Below are positions 6,965-59,433 of a DNA stretch of 64,000 nucleotides, one piece after another. The notes below the pieces were generated by a model that saw only the letters and a list, made by a program, of their open reading frames with translations, had not been told where the DNA came from and ran no database searches. The translations under genes were made by a program, and so were the position numbers. The DNA comes from Flavobacteriaceae bacterium (GTDB lineage Bacteria; Bacteroidota; Bacteroidia; Flavobacteriales; Flavobacteriaceae): NCBI GenBank assembly GCA_947446865.1, contig CANFHX010000001.1, positions 158,098-222,097 of the forward strand, read 5' to 3'. Position 1 is the first letter of the stretch. Each line of letters begins with the position of its first letter.

Positions 6965-7275
6965 ATGGAATAAGTACTTACGGAAAACGAACAACGTTAT
7001 GCCAAAAGCAAACAGAGAGGTTCTAAAAGCACAAAGCCTTATGTAGAGAACGAACAGCGTTATATCAAAAGCAAATAAAGAGATTCCAAAAGCATAAAGC
7101 CTTATGTAGAGAACGAACAGCGTTATTTCAAAAGCAAATAGAGAGGGTACTAAAGCAGATAGCCTTATGAAGCGAACGAACAGCGTTAGGTCAAAAGCAA
7201 ATAGAGAGGTTACAAAAGCATATAGCCTTATGTAGAGAACGAACAGCGTTAGGTCAAAAGCAAAGAAGCACATGC
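6965..7275. repeat. tandem repeat, 63 bp period, about 4.5 copies
   Basis: 'agcctta(tgtaga)gaacgaacagcgtta' recurs at 7035, 7098, 7161 and 7224, exactly 63 bp apart. Confidence 0.93.
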
Positions 7276-15946: not shown

Positions 15947-15950
15947 CAAA

Positions 15951-16481
15951 TAAAATCCGTTCTAATCCGTGCAATCTGTGGCAAAAACAACTACTTGCTA
16001 TGTATTCTATGCAAAGCGAAGCGCCTTAACTCCATTAAAAACCTATGAATCTCCTATGTGGTTAAAAAACAATTTCAATTGTAAATAAAATCCGTTCCAA
16101 TCCGTGCAATCTGTGGCAAAAACAACTACTTGCTATGTATTCTATGTAAAGCGAAGCGCCTTACTCCATTAAAAACCTATGAATCTCCTATGTGGTTAAA
16201 AAACAATTGCAAAATCAGCGATCAGTGTTCAGTGCTCAATGCTCGGTGATCAGTAATACAAAACACAATACCAATTGCCATCCTAAATTAAACAGTAACA
16301 ATATTCATCTGCGTTATCTGCGTAATAAAATTCAATGGCAACGTCAAAATCAATAACAAATAAAATCCGATCCAATCCGTGCAATCTGTGGCAAAAACAA
16401 CTACTTGCTATGTATTCTATGTAAAGCGAAGCGCCTTAATCCATCTTAAAACCAATCCATCTATGTGGTTAAAAAAACAAT
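15951..16481. repeat. three direct copies of a ~120 bp intergenic repeat (15951-16072, 16085-16206, 16361-16481)
   Basis: Each contains 'taaaatccg(t/a)t(c/t)(c/t)aatccgtgcaatctgtggcaaaaacaactacttgctatgtattctatg(c/t)aaagcgaagcgcctta...ctatgtggttaaaaaa'. Confidence 0.93.
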
Positions 16482-20340: not shown

Positions 20341-20527
20341 GTTTTTATCCGCGTTGCTTTGCATCCGCTTTATCTGCGTCCAATTTGATCTTGAAATCGG
20401 AATGGCACGCGGATTTTACGGATATTCTAACGCGGATTCTAACGGATTTTTATCCGCGTTGCTTGCATCCGTTTTATCCGCGTCCAATTTAATCTTGCAA
20501 TCGAAATGGCACGCGTATTTAACGGAT
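20341..20527. repeat. two direct copies of an ~80 bp dispersed repeat (third copy at 50807-50903)
   Basis: 'tttttatccgcgttgctt(t)gcatccg(c/t)tttatc(t/c)gcgtccaattt(g/a)atcttg(a/c)aatcg.aatggcacgcg'. Confidence 0.92.
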
Positions 20528-20547: not shown

Positions 20548-21630
20548 TCAAAATTCAAACCGCAACTGCACTACCACTGTTTTCTTCACATCGGTATTCA
20601 AGTTGTTTAACGAAATTCCGAGTAAGCGCACCGAGTCTTTCATTCGTTCTTGAAACAATAATTCTTTTGCAGTTTCCAACAGCAACCCTTTATCGGCAAT
20701 GAAATAGGGTAGGGTTTTACTTCGGGTTTGGGTAGTAAAATCGCTGTATTTTATTTTCAGGGTAACCGTCTTCCCCGAAAGGGTATATTTCTTTAATCGT
20801 TTTTCCAGTTCGGCAGCAATTCGTTCTAATTTCTCCAACATAAAAATCTCCGAAGTAAGATTTTCATTAAACGTATGCTCTGCCGCCACCGACTTCGAAA
20901 TTCTATTGGGTTTCACCTCACTGTTGTGAATGCCTCGTACAATATTGTAGTAGAATCCACCACTTTTGCCAAAATGTTGCTCTAGATATTCTCTGGTTTT
21001 AGACTTTAAATCTTTGCCCGTAAAAATACCATGTTGGTACATTTTCTCTTTAGTAACCTTGCCAATTCCGTAGAACTTTTTAATCTCTAAGTTTTCTAAA
21101 AATCGTTCTACTTCTTCCGGATTTACTGTTTTTTGACCGTTAGGTTTGTTGTAATCACTAGCAATTTTGGCAACAAATTTATTTACCGAAATTCCCGCAG
21201 AAGCATTCAAGCCCACTTCATCGTGAATACGTTTCCGAATTTCTTGCGCAATCAAACTTGCACTCGGATTTCCTTTTTTATTTTGTGTAACATCCAAATA
21301 CGCTTCGTCCAACGAAAGCGGCTCCACCAAATCGGTGTAATCCAAAAAAATCTTCCGGATTTTGTTAGAGATTTCTTTATAGCGGTCAAAACGTGGTCGC
21401 ACAAAAATTAATTCGGGGCAATTTCGTTTGGCTTGCACACCACTCATGGCACTTCGCACCCCAAATTTTCTTGCCTCATAACTTGCCGCCGAAACCACAC
21501 CCCGCACTTCACTTCCGCCCACAGCCAAAGGTTTTCCTCGAAGTTCGGGAAAGTCCATTTGCTCCACCGAAGCGTAGAATGCATCCATATCGACATGGAT
21601 TATTTTTCGTAATTGGATTTCTTCTGACAC
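20548..21630 (-). CDS. dinB: DNA polymerase IV (Y-family)
   Basis: 'IIHVDMDAFYASVEQMDFPELRGKPLAVGG...SYEARKFGVRSAMSG...SLDEAYLDVT...GISVNKFVAKIASDYNKPNG'. Confidence 0.96.
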   Translation of the reverse strand: MSEEIQLRKIIHVDMDAFYASVEQMDFPELRGKPLAVGGSEVRGVVSAASYEARKFGVRSAMSGVQAKRNCPELIFVRPRFDRYKEISNKIRKIFLDYTDLVEPLSLDEAYLDVTQNKKGNPSASLIAQEIRKRIHDEVGLNASAGISVNKFVAKIASDYNKPNGQKTVNPEEVERFLENLEIKKFYGIGKVTKEKMYQHGIFTGKDLKSKTREYLEQHFGKSGGFYYNIVRGIHNSEVKPNRISKSVAAEHTFNENLTSEIFMLEKLERIAAELEKRLKKYTLSGKTVTLKIKYSDFTTQTRSKTLPYFIADKGLLLETAKELLFQERMKDSVRLLGISLNNLNTDVKKTVVVQLRFEF

Positions 21631-45312: not shown

Positions 45313-45498
45313 GCTTTAAATTGAACATAGAATTACTAATAATCCGATTTCTACCAATTTTAAAATCACCTGAAAAACCCTGGTTAAATTATAAAAATTA
45401 TATAAATTGAGTTTTACCTAACGAGTAATAAATTATATTTGCTAACCTATAGTGCTTTCGGGTAGTCTATTTGGTTTCGAATTAGAAAATCTCTTTAC

Positions 45499-46731
45499 AT
45501 GTTCTCGATAAAATCTCTTTTTACTTTTGTTTTGGTAGCGTTTTTGGCGGTAACCTTGCGAGCGCAAAAAATTGACGACTGGGTAGTTAAAAAGATAGAT
45601 TCCACTGCTTTAAATGGTATTGATTATTCTAAAAACAACCTCGAGAATACGAATTCGATGTTTCCGTTGTTGGCTAAATTGTATAAGATTAAACATTTTA
45701 GCAAAGAAAATGCGGTCTTTGTTCATATTGGAGATTCGCATATTCAAGCCGATGTAGCAACTTCGGTTATCCGAAATGAATTGCAAAGTTATTTTGGTAA
45801 TGCCGGCCGTGGATTGGTTTTTCCGTACCAAGTCGGAAAATCGAATGCGCCTTACGATATTGTTTCGAGTTCTAAAAGCAGCTGGAAAAGCAACCGCTTG
45901 GCGCGAATAGACACGCTTATTACTTGTGGTGTTTCGGCATTTGGTTTGCAATCGCAAAGTGTTAATCCGGAATTTAATTTGGAACTACGATCTATTAACG
46001 GCGTTCGAGATAATTTTGATAAAGTAAATTTATTTATGGGTGGTCCGATATCGGAATTGTATATGGAATACAACGATACCCAAGCCGAAAATGGTTGTTA
46101 TCCGTTGGCTCCCGATTATACCGTTTTTAATTTAAAATCGCCTACCTCTGGCTTCCGATTGACGTTCCCCACTACCGATTCCATTCGTTTTTATGGTGCC
46201 TCGCTTGAAAAAAAGGATGCTTGCGGAATTATCTACCACAGCATTGGTGCAAATGGTGCTAAATATTCGGATTATAATAAAACCAAACAGTTTTGGAAGC
46301 AACTAAACAAGTTGCGTGCCGATTGCTACATTGTTTCACTAGGAACCAATGAAGCACAAGATCCAAATTTAACTGCCGAGGGGTTTCTAATAGAAGTGAA
46401 AATTATGGTTGCTAAATTGCAATTGGTTTCTCCCAAAGCTTGTATTATTCTTACCACGCCACCAGTTTCTTATTATAAAAAAAGGAACCCCAATTTCTCT
46501 TTAGAAGTTATTACGAGTGCCTTGATAGAGTATTGCAATGCCAATAATTTGGTCTATTGGGATTTATTTAATGTCTCCCAAGGTTTGGAAGGTGCTAAAA
46601 TTTGGAGGAAGAAACAACTCCTCCGACAAGATTTAGTGCATTTCTCTAGAGAAGGTTATGTCTTGCAAGGAAACTTATTTGTAGATGCTTTCGCAAAAGT
46701 GTGGAACGAGTTTTTGTGTAAGAATTATTAA
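45499..46731 (+). CDS. SGNH/GDSL hydrolase family protein
   Basis: 'FVHIGDSHIQADVATSVIRNELQSYFG' (GDS block) and 'QDLVHFSREGYVLQGNLF' (block V His). Confidence 0.85.
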   Translation: MFSIKSLFTFVLVAFLAVTLRAQKIDDWVVKKIDSTALNGIDYSKNNLENTNSMFPLLAKLYKIKHFSKENAVFVHIGDSHIQADVATSVIRNELQSYFGNAGRGLVFPYQVGKSNAPYDIVSSSKSSWKSNRLARIDTLITCGVSAFGLQSQSVNPEFNLELRSINGVRDNFDKVNLFMGGPISELYMEYNDTQAENGCYPLAPDYTVFNLKSPTSGFRLTFPTTDSIRFYGASLEKKDACGIIYHSIGANGAKYSDYNKTKQFWKQLNKLRADCYIVSLGTNEAQDPNLTAEGFLIEVKIMVAKLQLVSPKACIILTTPPVSYYKKRNPNFSLEVITSALIEYCNANNLVYWDLFNVSQGLEGAKIWRKKQLLRQDLVHFSREGYVLQGNLFVDAFAKVWNEFLCKNY

Positions 46732-46735
46732 GTTT

Positions 46736-47071
46736 TTACCCTGCAATTTTCACAACACTGTCTAAAAGTTCTACATTAAAATTTACTTTCGCATTTAATG
46801 CTTTAAAGACTTTAAGGATGGTTTCGAGAGTAACATTAGTAGTATTGTTTTCTAGTTTTGAGATTTGCGCTCTTTGAACTCCAATTAGTTTTCCTAAATC
46901 TTCTTGCGTCATATTCTTTCCTAAACGCACTTTTTTTATTAGATTGCCTAGTAGTTCCATTTGAAGTTCTTGTTCGTAAAAGGCTCTTTTTACAGTGCCA
47001 ATTTCTCCAATAAATTCGTCTTTGATTTCATCAAAAGAGAATATTTCCAAGTCTGTATCTTTATTTTTCAT
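46736..47071 (-). CDS. XRE-family antitoxin (HTH)
   Basis: 'LGNLIKKVRLGKNMTQEDLGKLIGVQRAQISKLENNTTNVTLETILKVFKALNAKV'; overlaps the toxin ORF end at 47061. Confidence 0.88.
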   Translation of the reverse strand: MKNKDTDLEIFSFDEIKDEFIGEIGTVKRAFYEQELQMELLGNLIKKVRLGKNMTQEDLGKLIGVQRAQISKLENNTTNVTLETILKVFKALNAKVNFNVELLDSVVKIAG

Positions 47072-47411
47072 TTCTCTTATCTTTAAGTTCAAAGTATCTC
47101 AATCTAATATTTTCGGCTTTTTCTATTTCTTTTTCAGGAGTTTTTCCGGTTTTCTTAATTATTCCGTGGGTTGCTAGAACTAACGTATTAATTTTCTCTG
47201 TTTTGTCCCAAAAGGCAAAAATTCGGAAGTAAGTTTTATTGTACAAAGTTCGAAACTCCCATATTTCCCCTTTCAATTTTTTGAACAACTCAGTATCATT
47301 TTTAATTTTCGATTTGTCAATATTAAAAATGATCTTGTCCCGACTTTTTTCTTCTAATCCAAGAAGAAATTCCCTAGCCTCCGTTAAAAAAAGTACTTTA
47401 AATTTATCCAT
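47061..47411 (-). CDS. RelE/HigB-like (Gp49-type) toxin
   Basis: 'LTEAREFLLGLEEKSRDKIIFNIDKSK...FKKLKGEIWEFRTLYNKTYFRIFAFWDKTEKINTLVLATHGIIKKTGKTPEKEIEKAENIR'. Confidence 0.9.
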   Translation of the reverse strand: MDKFKVLFLTEAREFLLGLEEKSRDKIIFNIDKSKIKNDTELFKKLKGEIWEFRTLYNKTYFRIFAFWDKTEKINTLVLATHGIIKKTGKTPEKEIEKAENIRLRYFELKDKRNEK

Positions 47412-47495
47412 TCAAATACGATTGTTTCCATACAAAGATACAAACAAAATAAAAAGAGGTGAATATTTTTTTAAAATATTTTAAGAAACGAAACT

Positions 47496-48974
47496 CTAAA
47501 ACTGCAAATAAATTGGCATTACTGGTTGTGCGCTTTTAAAGAAGGAATACAAAGCAATAAATAAAAACATTCCCACAACGTAGTACACCATAGGAAAACG
47601 CTTTTGTTTTTCTATGATTTTTTCCGGGAAACTGTCTGGAATTAGGTGAATTAAATAGCCAATTACAATTAGTATAATAACGTATTTATAATTTTCTACA
47701 TATTCATAAGCACCGTCAAAAGTGAATTGGTATACTATCTGATGGATGAATTGCAAAGCGTTATCCAAATTACTCGCTTTGAAGAAAATCCAACAGAAAC
47801 ATACAAAATGAAAGGTAATAATAGCAAAGAAAAAGTTGCTAACTGCCGATGGAAAAATTTTAATTCTTCCGAAAAGGAATGTCCATAGTTTGTTAATCAT
47901 CAAACCCGTTCCGTGCATTGCTCCCCAAATAATAAAATTCCAACTAGCACCATGCCAAAAACCGCCAATTAACATCGTTAAGAATAAATTCAAATTGGTT
48001 CTGAATTTACCTTTTCGATTACCACCCATAGAAATGTACAAGTAATCGCGCAACCAACTAGATAACGATATGTGCCATCTGCGCCAGAATTCACTCACCG
48101 ATTTACTTTGATAAGGCGACAAAAAGTTAGTCGGGATAGTAATCCCCATCCATTTAGAAATTCCGATAGCAACATCGCTATAACCACTAAAGTCACAGTA
48201 AATAACAATAGCATAGCCGTACAACGCCACTAAACATTCCAATCCATTATGCAGGTGTGGCCCATCAAAAACATAGTTTACTAAATTCACCGAAATATAA
48301 TCGGAGATGATTAATTTCTTGGTCAATCCAGTAATTATCAAATAAAATCCTTTCGAGAAATCGGTGTCGCTTACAAAATAATCTTTCTTTAACTGAGGAA
48401 TAAAATCTTTAGCACGAACTATTGGACCCATTACCAATTTCGGGAAGAACGAAAGAAACAACATATAATTCACGATTCCTTTTTCAGGTTCTATTTCCCC
48501 GCGGTATACATCTATAGTGTAACTTAGATTTTCGAAAGTAAAAAACGAAATCCCTATTGGCAATAAAATATGTAAAGCATCAAATTTTAACGTAGAAAAA
48601 TTATTCAAAACCTCTAAAAAGAAATTGGTATATTTGAAATAAAACAACAATCCGAGATTGAAAATTACACTTAAAAACAGTAAGAATTGTTTGCCGCCTT
48701 TCTTCTTCACCTTGAAAATCCAATTGGAAATACCGTAGTTGAAAAATGCCGAAAGAATCACAATTAACACAAAACCACCACTTGCTTTATAGAAAAAATA
48801 CAACGAAAACAAGGTAAGAACCATCGCTCTATGCTTGTAGTTTTTTCTAAAAAGGTAATAGAACACGATAAACGCCGATAAAAAATACACGAAAAACCCA
48901 TTGTTAAACAACAACGGACTATGAGCATCATACAACAACTGCTCTTTTACGCTATTCCAATCTATTTGTATCAT
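47496..48974 (-). CDS. MBOAT family O-acyltransferase (AlgI-like)
   Basis: 'LPIGISFFTFENLSYTIDVYRGEI', 'FWRRWHISLSSWLRDYLYISMGGNRKG', 'LIGGFWHGASWNFIIWGAMHG'. Confidence 0.95.
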   Translation of the reverse strand: MIQIDWNSVKEQLLYDAHSPLLFNNGFFVYFLSAFIVFYYLFRKNYKHRAMVLTLFSLYFFYKASGGFVLIVILSAFFNYGISNWIFKVKKKGGKQFLLFLSVIFNLGLLFYFKYTNFFLEVLNNFSTLKFDALHILLPIGISFFTFENLSYTIDVYRGEIEPEKGIVNYMLFLSFFPKLVMGPIVRAKDFIPQLKKDYFVSDTDFSKGFYLIITGLTKKLIISDYISVNLVNYVFDGPHLHNGLECLVALYGYAIVIYCDFSGYSDVAIGISKWMGITIPTNFLSPYQSKSVSEFWRRWHISLSSWLRDYLYISMGGNRKGKFRTNLNLFLTMLIGGFWHGASWNFIIWGAMHGTGLMINKLWTFLFGRIKIFPSAVSNFFFAIITFHFVCFCWIFFKASNLDNALQFIHQIVYQFTFDGAYEYVENYKYVIILIVIGYLIHLIPDSFPEKIIEKQKRFPMVYYVVGMFLFIALYSFFKSAQPVMPIYLQF

Positions 48975-50515
48975 ATAGAATCGCCTTTTTTAACAGGAGG
49001 TTTCGGAACTATTTCTTTAGGAATCACTTCTTTTATCACTTTGGGTTTTAGTACCTCCACTTTCGGGGCTGCCGGTTTTGGGGTATCTTTTTTGACTTGA
49101 ATCGTTTCTTTTATAATCGTTTTAGGAACTACCACAGCAGGAACAACAATTGGTTTGCCACCTTTTTTGAGCAGTACCCCTTTTTGGTAATCGTGCAATA
49201 GTGCCTTAAAAATGATTTTACTTACCGCTTTAGCACCTCTAAAATTAAAATGGATATAATCCTTATTAGCATATTGAACGGTGCTGTCTGCCCATTTTAC
49301 AATGGTTCCGCTTCCGCCAATAGATTTATAGAAATTATAAAACGGAATATCGGTATCATAAGCCAATCGTGCTTGCGTATGAATCAACGAATCAATACCC
49401 ACGGCAGTTTTCCATTCGCCATCATAATTAAACGCTCTATCCGAACAACTAAACAATAAAAACTCGGTATTGGGTAGGTTGTTTTGAAACTTTTTAAGCA
49501 CCGGTCGCATGCCGCGATAGTAATAATCGTAGTTGGTGTCGTTGGGTTGGAACATCAAGTTCACCCCATATTGAAAAACAATCAAATCATAATAGCCCGA
49601 TCGGCTAATTTCTGCCAATAAATCACTGTTTATTTTCTTCAATTCTACACCGGTAATTCCTCTAAACGAATAATTATCCAATACAATTCCCGATTGTGGT
49701 TCCGAACTTACTCCAAAAATCGGAGTTCGCTTTGCCGAAACCGTAAACTTCGCTTTATTAGAAACCCCACTTCCTACCAATACCCGGTTGAACTCCGAAT
49801 TGGCAGGGTATTTCCGAACCGAATCGTTTATCTTAACCGAAATAGAATCGCCTTTGCCATAAAGCAACCATTTTTGGGTAATTTGAGTGCTACTTTTCTT
49901 CACATTATCTCTAAAATCCACCTCTAAATTGTTACTATAAAAAGAATATCCCGATAAAAACAAGCCACCATTATGTTCTTGTTTCTTAAAATTATCCACG
50001 TTCACATCGCCGGTAGTAAAAACTTTGGCAGTCCTTCTAAAGTCCGATGAAACACAAGAAATAGGAACATAACCAACCCCTTTTTGTTGTCCAAAATAAT
50101 TCTGAAGTTGCTCCCTAACATCCTGCGTAATAAAATCGCCTTCAATCTGGCTATCACCAAACCAGGCAATTCGTATTTTAACATTTTTACCTTCCGATAA
50201 AGCAATTAATTTTTGTGTAAGTTTAGGCAAGGCAGGCGCCACGGTATCGGCATTAAAACGAATAAGAGCATCTTTCTTTTCGTAAGCCTCAAATTCATTT
50301 TTAGGCAAACTATCTTCCGAAACCGAATTCCCAATCCCTTTAGTTGTAACAGCCCCTTTTTTAGTTTTTTCCTTCACCAAAATATCCGAAAGCAAATTCA
50401 CATTTTTAAAATACGGATACTGCCCAATAAACTCTTTCGAGAATACCGACAACAGCAACTGAATGCTAGTGACTACTAAAATTAAGGTAATAACTTTTTT
50501 GCTCTGGTTCATCAA
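48971..50515 (-). CDS. SGNH hydrolase-like protein with Lys/Pro-rich C-terminal tail
   Basis: 'IRIAWFGDSQIEGDFITQDVREQLQNYFGQQKGVGYV' and 'KDYIHFNFRGAKAVSKII'; ATGA overlap with the MBOAT gene. Confidence 0.85.
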   Translation of the reverse strand: MMNQSKKVITLILVVTSIQLLLSVFSKEFIGQYPYFKNVNLLSDILVKEKTKKGAVTTKGIGNSVSEDSLPKNEFEAYEKKDALIRFNADTVAPALPKLTQKLIALSEGKNVKIRIAWFGDSQIEGDFITQDVREQLQNYFGQQKGVGYVPISCVSSDFRRTAKVFTTGDVNVDNFKKQEHNGGLFLSGYSFYSNNLEVDFRDNVKKSSTQITQKWLLYGKGDSISVKINDSVRKYPANSEFNRVLVGSGVSNKAKFTVSAKRTPIFGVSSEPQSGIVLDNYSFRGITGVELKKINSDLLAEISRSGYYDLIVFQYGVNLMFQPNDTNYDYYYRGMRPVLKKFQNNLPNTEFLLFSCSDRAFNYDGEWKTAVGIDSLIHTQARLAYDTDIPFYNFYKSIGGSGTIVKWADSTVQYANKDYIHFNFRGAKAVSKIIFKALLHDYQKGVLLKKGGKPIVVPAVVVPKTIIKETIQVKKDTPKPAAPKVEVLKPKVIKEVIPKEIVPKPPVKKGDSI

Positions 50516-50811
50516 CCTTCGTTTGGGTATAAAGTCCGCGAAATCCTTTTTAGAGTGTTAAGCGATTGTAAAATTCACGGCAAAAGTAAAAAAAAGGAAG
50601 CGTGTTTTACACTTTAAACAAAAATAATTTTTTAGCACAATTAGAAGCGAAACTTTGGGGCATTTTAGTAAGCGTCTTTCCCGCTTTTCGCACCGCACGG
50701 CGGATTGCTTCAATCGGGGCTAGACAGGTTATGTCTTTTGTGAAAATAAAATTTCAAAAGAAACCTTTGCGTAAAGTTGACCTTCTGACCAAAGGAAGAA
50801 TCCCAATTTTT

Positions 50812-50902
50812 ATCCGCGTTGCTTGCATCCGTTTTATCCGCGTCCAATTTGATCTTGCAATCGTGATGGCACGCGGATTTTACGGATGCAAGCAACGCGG
50901 AT
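50812..50902. repeat. dispersed ~80 bp repeat (copy C) ending in a 20-bp perfect inverted repeat
   Basis: atccgcgttgcttgcatccg ... cggatgcaagcaacgcggat. Confidence 0.92.
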
Positions 50903-50927
50903 TATTACGGATTGTTGTAGATGCCAT

Positions 50928-51160
50928 CGACATACATAATTATGCCGAAATTTTATAATTTTTCCTCTAGAATTATAAAATTATGCCATCGGCAATGTTG
51001 TAGATGCCATCGTCATACATAATTATGCCGAAATTTTATAATTTTTCCTCTAGAATTATAAAATTATGCCATCGTCATACATAATTATGCCGAAATTTTA
51101 TAATTTTTCCTCTAGAATTATAAAATTATGCCATGGTCATACATAATTATGGCATCGGCA
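50928..51160. repeat. 62-bp tandem hairpin array
   Basis: 'cg(t/a)catacataattatgccgaaattttataatttttcctctagaattataaaattatgccat' starts at 50928, 51011 and 51073, with a partial at 51135. The second-to-fourth starts are 62 bp apart. Each full unit has the 12-bp perfect stem aattttataatt/aattataaaatt. Confidence 0.93.
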
Positions 51161-51510
51161 ACATTGTAGATGGCATCTACAAGTAATTTTATGGCAAAAT
51201 CATATAATAAGATCCTTTATAATTGTATAATTATGCTGTTTGCAACATTGTTTACGGCAGTTACAACTATGTTTTTGGCGTATACAACCACGACGGGAGT
51301 TTCTATTGAGTGGACAGAATTTTGTGTAAACTCTAAAAATGCTTAATAAATACAACTTTGTGCAGAGGGGTTTCTTTTGGAATAGTATTTTCACAAAAGA
51401 CATAACCTATCTAGCCCCGATTGAAGCAATCCGCCGTGCGGTGCGAAAAGCGGGAATGACGTTTACTACAATGCGCAAGTCCTTCGCTTCTAAAAGAAAA
51501 ATATTTTAAT

Positions 51511-51540
51511 ACCTAACAGGTTGAAAAAACCTGTTAGGAT
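51511..51540. repeat. short palindromic hairpin cctaacaggtt-gaaa-aaacctgttagg
   Basis: Read directly; perfect inverted repeat just outside the right arm of the IR element. Confidence 0.88.
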
Positions 51541-51587
51541 AGGTAGTAAATTGTGGCGATAATATTGAGATTGCTTCGTGCCTCGCA

Positions 51588-51618
51588 AAAAAAAACCGCC
51601 TCCAAAAGGAAGCGGTTT
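51588..51618 (-). terminator. rho-independent terminator downstream of mscL
   Basis: Minus strand: gaaaccgcttccttttggaggcggttttttttt. Confidence 0.85.
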
Positions 51619-51645: not shown

Positions 51646-52044
51646 TTATTTTTTTAATAAATCTCTGATTTGAGTTAGTAATTCTTCTTGAGATGGACCA
51701 GAAGGAGCTGGGGCAGCAACTGGTTTTCTCAATTTGTTGTACGATTTTACGATGACGAACATCACAAATCCAACCACTAGTAAACTAATAATAGTGTTAA
51801 TCCATTTACCAATAGCGATAACATTTGCTGGAACTTCAGTGCCATCGGCTTTTTTGGTGGCTTCGTCTAGCGTGATTGCAATGGAAGAAAAATCCATTCC
51901 GCCAGAGAAATGCCCAACAATTGGCATAATAATGTCGCCAACAAAACCAGTAACTACTGCTCCAATTGCGCCTGCCATGATTACCGCAACTGCAAATTCC
52001 ACAACATTACCTGTCATGATAAAATTCTTGAATTCTTTCAACAT
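51646..52044 (-). CDS. mscL: large-conductance mechanosensitive channel
   Basis: 'MLKEFKNFIMTGNVVEFAVAVIMAGAIGAVVTGFVGDIIMPIVG'. Confidence 0.95.
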   Translation of the reverse strand: MLKEFKNFIMTGNVVEFAVAVIMAGAIGAVVTGFVGDIIMPIVGHFSGGMDFSSIAITLDEATKKADGTEVPANVIAIGKWINTIISLLVVGFVMFVIVKSYNKLRKPVAAPAPSGPSQEELLTQIRDLLKK

Positions 52045-58944: not shown

Positions 58945-58982
58945 TCAAATAAAATAACACCAACTATTTTTTTATTAGCAGC

Positions 58983-59165
58983 GAATGGCTTGCGCATTTT
59001 AGCAAACGTCTTTCCCGCTTTTCGTTACAATCTGCCATTGCGAGGAACGAAGCAATCTTACAACACTATTCATTGATCGCAATGCCAGGATTTCCACTTC
59101 ACTCGGGGCTAGCAAATAATGGTATTGAATAGATATAAAATTTCTAAGAAACCTTTGCCAAATTG
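58983..59165. repeat. diverged relative of the 50641/51497 inverted-repeat arm
   Basis: 'gcgcattttagcaaacgtctttcccgcttttcg', 'cactcggggctag' and 'aagaaacctttgc' occur in the same order as in the 50641-50779 arm, with intervening unrelated sequence. Confidence 0.7.
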
Positions 59166-59433
59166 TCATTCTGACGCTGGAAGAAATCCAAACCAACCAA
59201 AACAAAAACCCACCAAAATCACTTTTGTTGGGTTCTATTATTTTAATAAGTAAAAACTTCCAAAACGTTTGTGCCTTTTGTGGTAAAAAATCCGAACTAA
59301 TCCGCGTTGCAAAGCATCCGTAGGATCTGCGTTCCATCCCAAGCGTTCGTCTTTAATTCACCGAAGCGAATTAGTAACCCAAGGAAGCTAAACAGTGATC
59401 GACCGAACCCCAATAAAATAAGAAAAAAACAAA

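Follow-up and report, generated by a model that had tools for sequence, protein, structure and literature searches.

The non-coding block at 50641–51497 of the window (the whole stretch of 64,000 nucleotides that was analysed) is almost certainly a repeat-filled synteny junction, marking the join of two distant chromosome pieces, and not a single element. Its parts are of known kinds, namely dispersed Flavobacterium repeats and an insertion-sequence fragment. The features of the block and its surroundings are listed here; G040 is the genome of a close relative, described below.

20551–21627, − strand: dinB; probably the original neighbour of the SGNH gene, from which 29 kb now separate it; CGCGGAT repeats flank its 3′ end
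48971–50515, − strand: SGNH gene, downstream of the block
50581–50588, − strand: predicted SGNH promoter box TACTTTTG, read from the sequence; outside the block and conserved in relatives without the repeats
50641–50765, + strand: left arm, an extended Flavo-1 in the short-hairpin form (Rfam core 50673–50725 on the − strand; RF01705, 32.5 bits)
50691–50764, no strand: core of the left arm, a likely gene-conversion tract
50812–50902, no strand: dispersed ATCCGCG...CGCGGAT inverted repeat of dinB–SGNH origin
50913–51290, no strand: dispersed hairpin array of 62-bp ATGCC...GGCAT units, then degenerate copies
51308–51345, + strand: terminal 38 bp of an IS256-family element
51369–51493, − strand: right arm, an extended Flavo-1 in the short-hairpin form (Rfam core 51409–51461 on the + strand; RF01705, 32.9 bits)
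51512–51538, no strand: CCTAACAGG...CCTGTTAGG hairpin between the right arm and the mscL terminator; reversed in G040, where it lies next to a second Flavo-1 copy
51594–51617, − strand: mscL intrinsic terminator; synteny with relatives restarts at 51586–51589
51646–52044, − strand: mscL

All three features described in an earlier note on this DNA, namely a pair of arms in inverted orientation, a smaller inverted repeat inside them and a tandem array of hairpins, are present at the stated positions, far beyond chance. The arms are 125 nt each and 90% complementary, with a spacer of 603 nt, and the right arm was returned as a match to the left at E = 1.9e-44 in a genome-wide search. The inner repeat (50812–50848 and 50866–50902) has halves of 37 nt at 86%, including a perfect part of 21 bp, and the array comprises about three 62-bp units followed by a degenerate continuation. 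As had been reported, the interior holds no credible gene, its open frames being chance ORFs of 61–118 aa, and inspection of the outer arm edges by eye showed no target-site duplication.

Both arms matched the Rfam Flavo-1 family (RF01705) over the full length of the model, with E ≈ 5e-5 in a whole-genome search, and neither reached the gathering score of 42 bits. Because of this combination, we class the arms, as judged from their sequence, as degenerate or short-hairpin relatives of Flavo-1. Flavo-1 copies are common: the 3.07 Mb genome has 81 matches to the model, 72 of them above the cut-off, the related genomes examined have 8 to 99 and a genome of another family has 1. Flavobacterium genomes carry dozens of copies each. 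An alignment of the two arms, 24 other copies and the G040 and G042 copies showed that the arms and the above-cut-off copies share conserved stretches flanking a variable hairpin: an outer half (AGCGAA...GGCATTTTAGTAA...TTCCCGCT), a hairpin that is highly variable from copy to copy, and an inner half (TCGGGGCTA...ATGTCTTTTGTGAAAATA...). The arms differ from the usual Flavo-1 in that a short CACCGCACGGCG hairpin replaces the long one, which is the likely reason for their low score, and from the model in carrying conserved extensions, AGCGAA... and ...TTTTGTGAAAATAAAATTTCAAAAG, beyond its 76 positions. Rfam microRNA matches in the block (MIR4239, mir-3910 and others) fell far under their gathering scores and reflect the palindromes only.

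The origin of the arms became apparent from 14 relatives that were fetched, which encode the SGNH protein at 52–98% identity. In G040 (SGNH 98%), the SGNH gene follows dinB, and the interval between them contains a long-hairpin Flavo-1 and a CGCGGAT repeat, arranged as the corresponding pieces are in the left part of the block. The mscL gene of G040, on the same contig but about 80 kb away from the SGNH locus, has a short-hairpin Flavo-1 directly behind its terminator, and this copy matches the right arm at 90% identity over 146 bp. The two arms thus have separate counterparts, and synteny with G040 stops at 50887 and restarts at 51586. These comparisons show that the left arm and the CGCGGAT repeat belong to the dinB–SGNH gap of the relatives, and the right arm to the 3′ flank of mscL. 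The earlier note had favoured a unit bounded by inverted repeats, such as a MITE-like element or a site; that idea is rejected. Each arm is its own copy of a widespread repeat, with its counterpart at a different locus of G040, and the interior pieces are dispersed as well, which is the outcome that the note had named as refuting its idea.

The neighbourhood of the SGNH gene varies among the genomes. Five different genes are found as its upstream neighbour: mscL here, dinB (G040 and G044), asd (G041), a phnA-like gene (G042) and atpD (G043), the last three names having been read from the encoded sequences. In G048, too, dinB is close upstream, with a single small gene in between. None of the 14 relatives fetched has mscL upstream of the SGNH gene. 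In G042, mscL adjoins and faces dinB, and in the present genome dinB adjoins asd. The same few intergenic places are thus joined differently from genome to genome, and this variation, together with the separate counterparts of the arms, leads us to regard the block as a repeat-built synteny junction. The dinB–SGNH gap of G044 contains none of these repeats.

Three other regions of the window may be mentioned here. The SGNH–MBOAT–SGNH genes at 45430–50690 form a conserved unit whose upstream neighbours differ in many related genomes. Within it, the MBOAT gene and the second SGNH gene are separated by a two-gene module (46736–47411) resembling a RelE/HigB toxin and a helix-turn-helix antitoxin, and the homology pattern suggests that this module is absent from G041, G043 and G044. 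A further break in synteny with G040 (58944/59363) coincides exactly with a third Flavo-1 (52.9 bits) and a CGCGGAT-type repeat at 58975–59338.

Another way to obtain facing arms would be a local inverted duplication, in which one Flavo-1 was copied in place, making the arms sisters. The perfect core that the arms share, and their 90% identity overall, would fit, but the left arm has the SGNH locus as its outer flank (88/90), and G040 has a distinct counterpart of the right arm beside mscL; we consider such a duplication very improbable. An inverted pair of Flavo-1 copies also lies beside mscL in G040, so that pairing is not unique to this site, which, like the low model score of the arms, counts against the junction reading.

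The high similarity of the arm cores has a different probable explanation, seen when the left arm was compared segment by segment with the two G040 copies. Against the SGNH-locus copy, the left arm matched at 88/90 positions in the outer part, 9/23 (plus 48 gap columns) in the hairpin, 29/51 in the inner half and 42/44 in the inner flank. Against the mscL-locus copy, the corresponding values were 54/82, 23/23, 50/51 and 31/45. Over the 74-bp core, this amounts to 73/74 for the mscL-locus copy versus 38/74, with the 48 gap columns, for the SGNH-locus copy. The left arm is therefore a mosaic, in which the 74-bp core was in all likelihood replaced between retained flanks, the mark of gene conversion; such a replacement would account for the perfect arm core noted earlier. 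Since G040 and G042, the latter being the nearest genome at the SGNH gene (94%), both have the long hairpin, the replacement most likely occurred in the lineage of the window. A short hairpin at the SGNH site of the distant genome G047 counts against this direction of conversion.

BLAST found about 40 arm-like pieces elsewhere and the interior pieces at separate sites. Two close copies of the 50812–50902 repeat lie behind dinB, at 20342–20527, and further copies elsewhere. Relatives of the 62-bp hairpin array occur on at least seven contigs. Both this array and the inner 37-bp repeat are thus found apart from the arms. No other locus was found to carry the arms together with the same interior, let alone several copies sharing both ends and interior. 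A non-autonomous, MITE-like element, with the arms as terminal inverted repeats and the interior as cargo moved by a transposase in trans, is consequently very improbable, for although the inverted arms are long and coding capacity is nil, single copies of the arm repeat stand at about 80 sites, the two arms correspond to different copies in G040, the interior pieces are found without them, their outer flanks differ and no target-site duplication is visible.

One interior piece is derived from an insertion sequence. The 38 bp at 51308–51345 recur, with one mismatch, in at least 10 other places; the 10 ends compared are identical to one another, and each is followed by the same sequence up to a contig break. 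Inward from the end, the sequence encodes the C-terminus of a transposase, and on another contig the IS-end DNA completes an open frame that strongly matches PF00872 (Transposase_mut, the IS256 family), the linkage being made through identical DNA at the contig break, where the transposase frame of contig C51 overlaps the IS-end contigs. The end common to the copies is thereby linked with a PF00872 transposase, and 51308–51345 is, on sequence grounds, a remnant of an IS256-family element. Unlike a complete element, it has only the one end in the window, and the block has neither a transposase nor a second end. The statement that the block is not a recognisable insertion sequence needs correction in this respect, since the 38-bp end had been overlooked; "decayed mobile DNA", one of the options raised earlier, describes this remnant but not the block as one unit.

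The IS256-family ends lie at contig ends of this genome (C1:89–126, C7:118646, C9:95612, C14:64782, C27:8, C69:90, C74:86 and others). Judged by eye, 7 of the 10 adjoin the ATGCC...GGCAT array, and the same arrangement was seen in G042 (on C142). G040 gave no match to the IS256-family end and none to the array. Either the insertion sequence prefers the array, or both spread together. In being a mosaic of intergenic palindromes, often with an insertion sequence beside the array, the block resembles the REP/BIME clusters targeted by insertion sequences (PMC1525189), from which it differs in its repeat sequences and in that no RAYT gene was found beside them. We considered a RAYT as the mover of the repeats and rejected it: the three PF01797 (Y1_Tnp) loci have no Flavo-1 or array motif within about 1.5 kb, and one of them has a single AATCCGCG nearby. 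A literature search on Flavobacterium intergenic palindromes returned nothing. Other repeats in the window include a 63-bp tandem repeat of 4.4 copies at 6986–7264, a 135-bp tandem duplication (2 copies, 96%) at 15948–16212 and numerous heptamer arrays in the region from 7.4 to 11.9 kb.

Together, the end products at the junction suggest a course of events. Recombination at dispersed repeats would have joined the dinB–SGNH and mscL places, perhaps started and probably helped by the IS256-family element whose end is still at the join, and this joining would have left two Flavo-1 copies face to face by chance. Gene conversion from the right arm, or from a similar copy, would then have replaced the left arm's hairpin and inner half. 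The roughly 100 bp between the right arm and the terminator are a reverse match to the flank of the second, inverted Flavo-1 beside mscL in G040, and the history therefore took more than one step.

It might instead be supposed that the block, about 0.85 kb long, acts on the SGNH operon as a structured non-coding RNA or cis-regulatory leader. Folded as a single RNA strand, it is predicted to be very stable (z = −21.6), and Flavo-1 itself is catalogued as a probable RNA (PMC2864571). However, the strong predicted fold is a consequence of the arms and other inverted repeats; relatives have the same gene without the block while the predicted promoter is kept; and in F. psychrophilum, Flavo-1 hits lie sense and antisense to transcribed regions, with many outside them (PMC9723704). 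A leader of this kind is very unlikely, and what survives of the structured-RNA suggestion is that the arms belong to a catalogued RNA motif, not that the block does so as one unit. As a repeat-filled junction, the block requires no function as a unit, and the predicted SGNH promoter box lies outside it and is conserved in repeat-free relatives.

The copies of Flavo-1 with the AGCGAA extension showed a directional placement. Where flanking genes were in tandem, they read into the AGCGAA side in 23 cases versus 1 (binomial p = 3e-6), a count that needs repeating, as it comes from 46 copies that are not independent, 41 of them from this genome, with genes called as ORFs of at least 90 codons and the extension called by a simple motif. 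In this genome, a T-rich tract lies directly before the start of the element in 27/41 copies versus 15/41 on the other side. The right arm obeys the rule; the left arm breaks it, its AGCGAA side facing the 5′ side of the SGNH gene. Core-only Flavo-1 copies, 86 in eight genomes, had no significant orientation bias (32 versus 19, p = 0.09), which fits the pattern in F. psychrophilum, where hits occur indistinctly in the sense and antisense of transcribed regions (PMC9723704).

These counts give rise to a tentative and rather doubtful proposal, that extended Flavo-1 is a directional, terminator-associated element that enters or is kept behind the 3′ ends of genes in one orientation, swaps hairpin cassettes by conversion and provides joints for rearrangement. 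Its one-way placement behind gene ends may be new. This placement also suggests that read-through from the upstream gene usually yields, in this genome, the complement of the strand that Rfam models.

A candidate new element is thereby removed, being accounted for by known repeats. In its place, the block illustrates cleanly, relatives serving as controls, how a Flavo-1 core was probably swapped for that of another copy at a breakpoint reused across related genomes. To our knowledge, no function has been assigned to Flavo-1, which has been in catalogues since 2010, and the directional placement of its extended form is a concrete lead.
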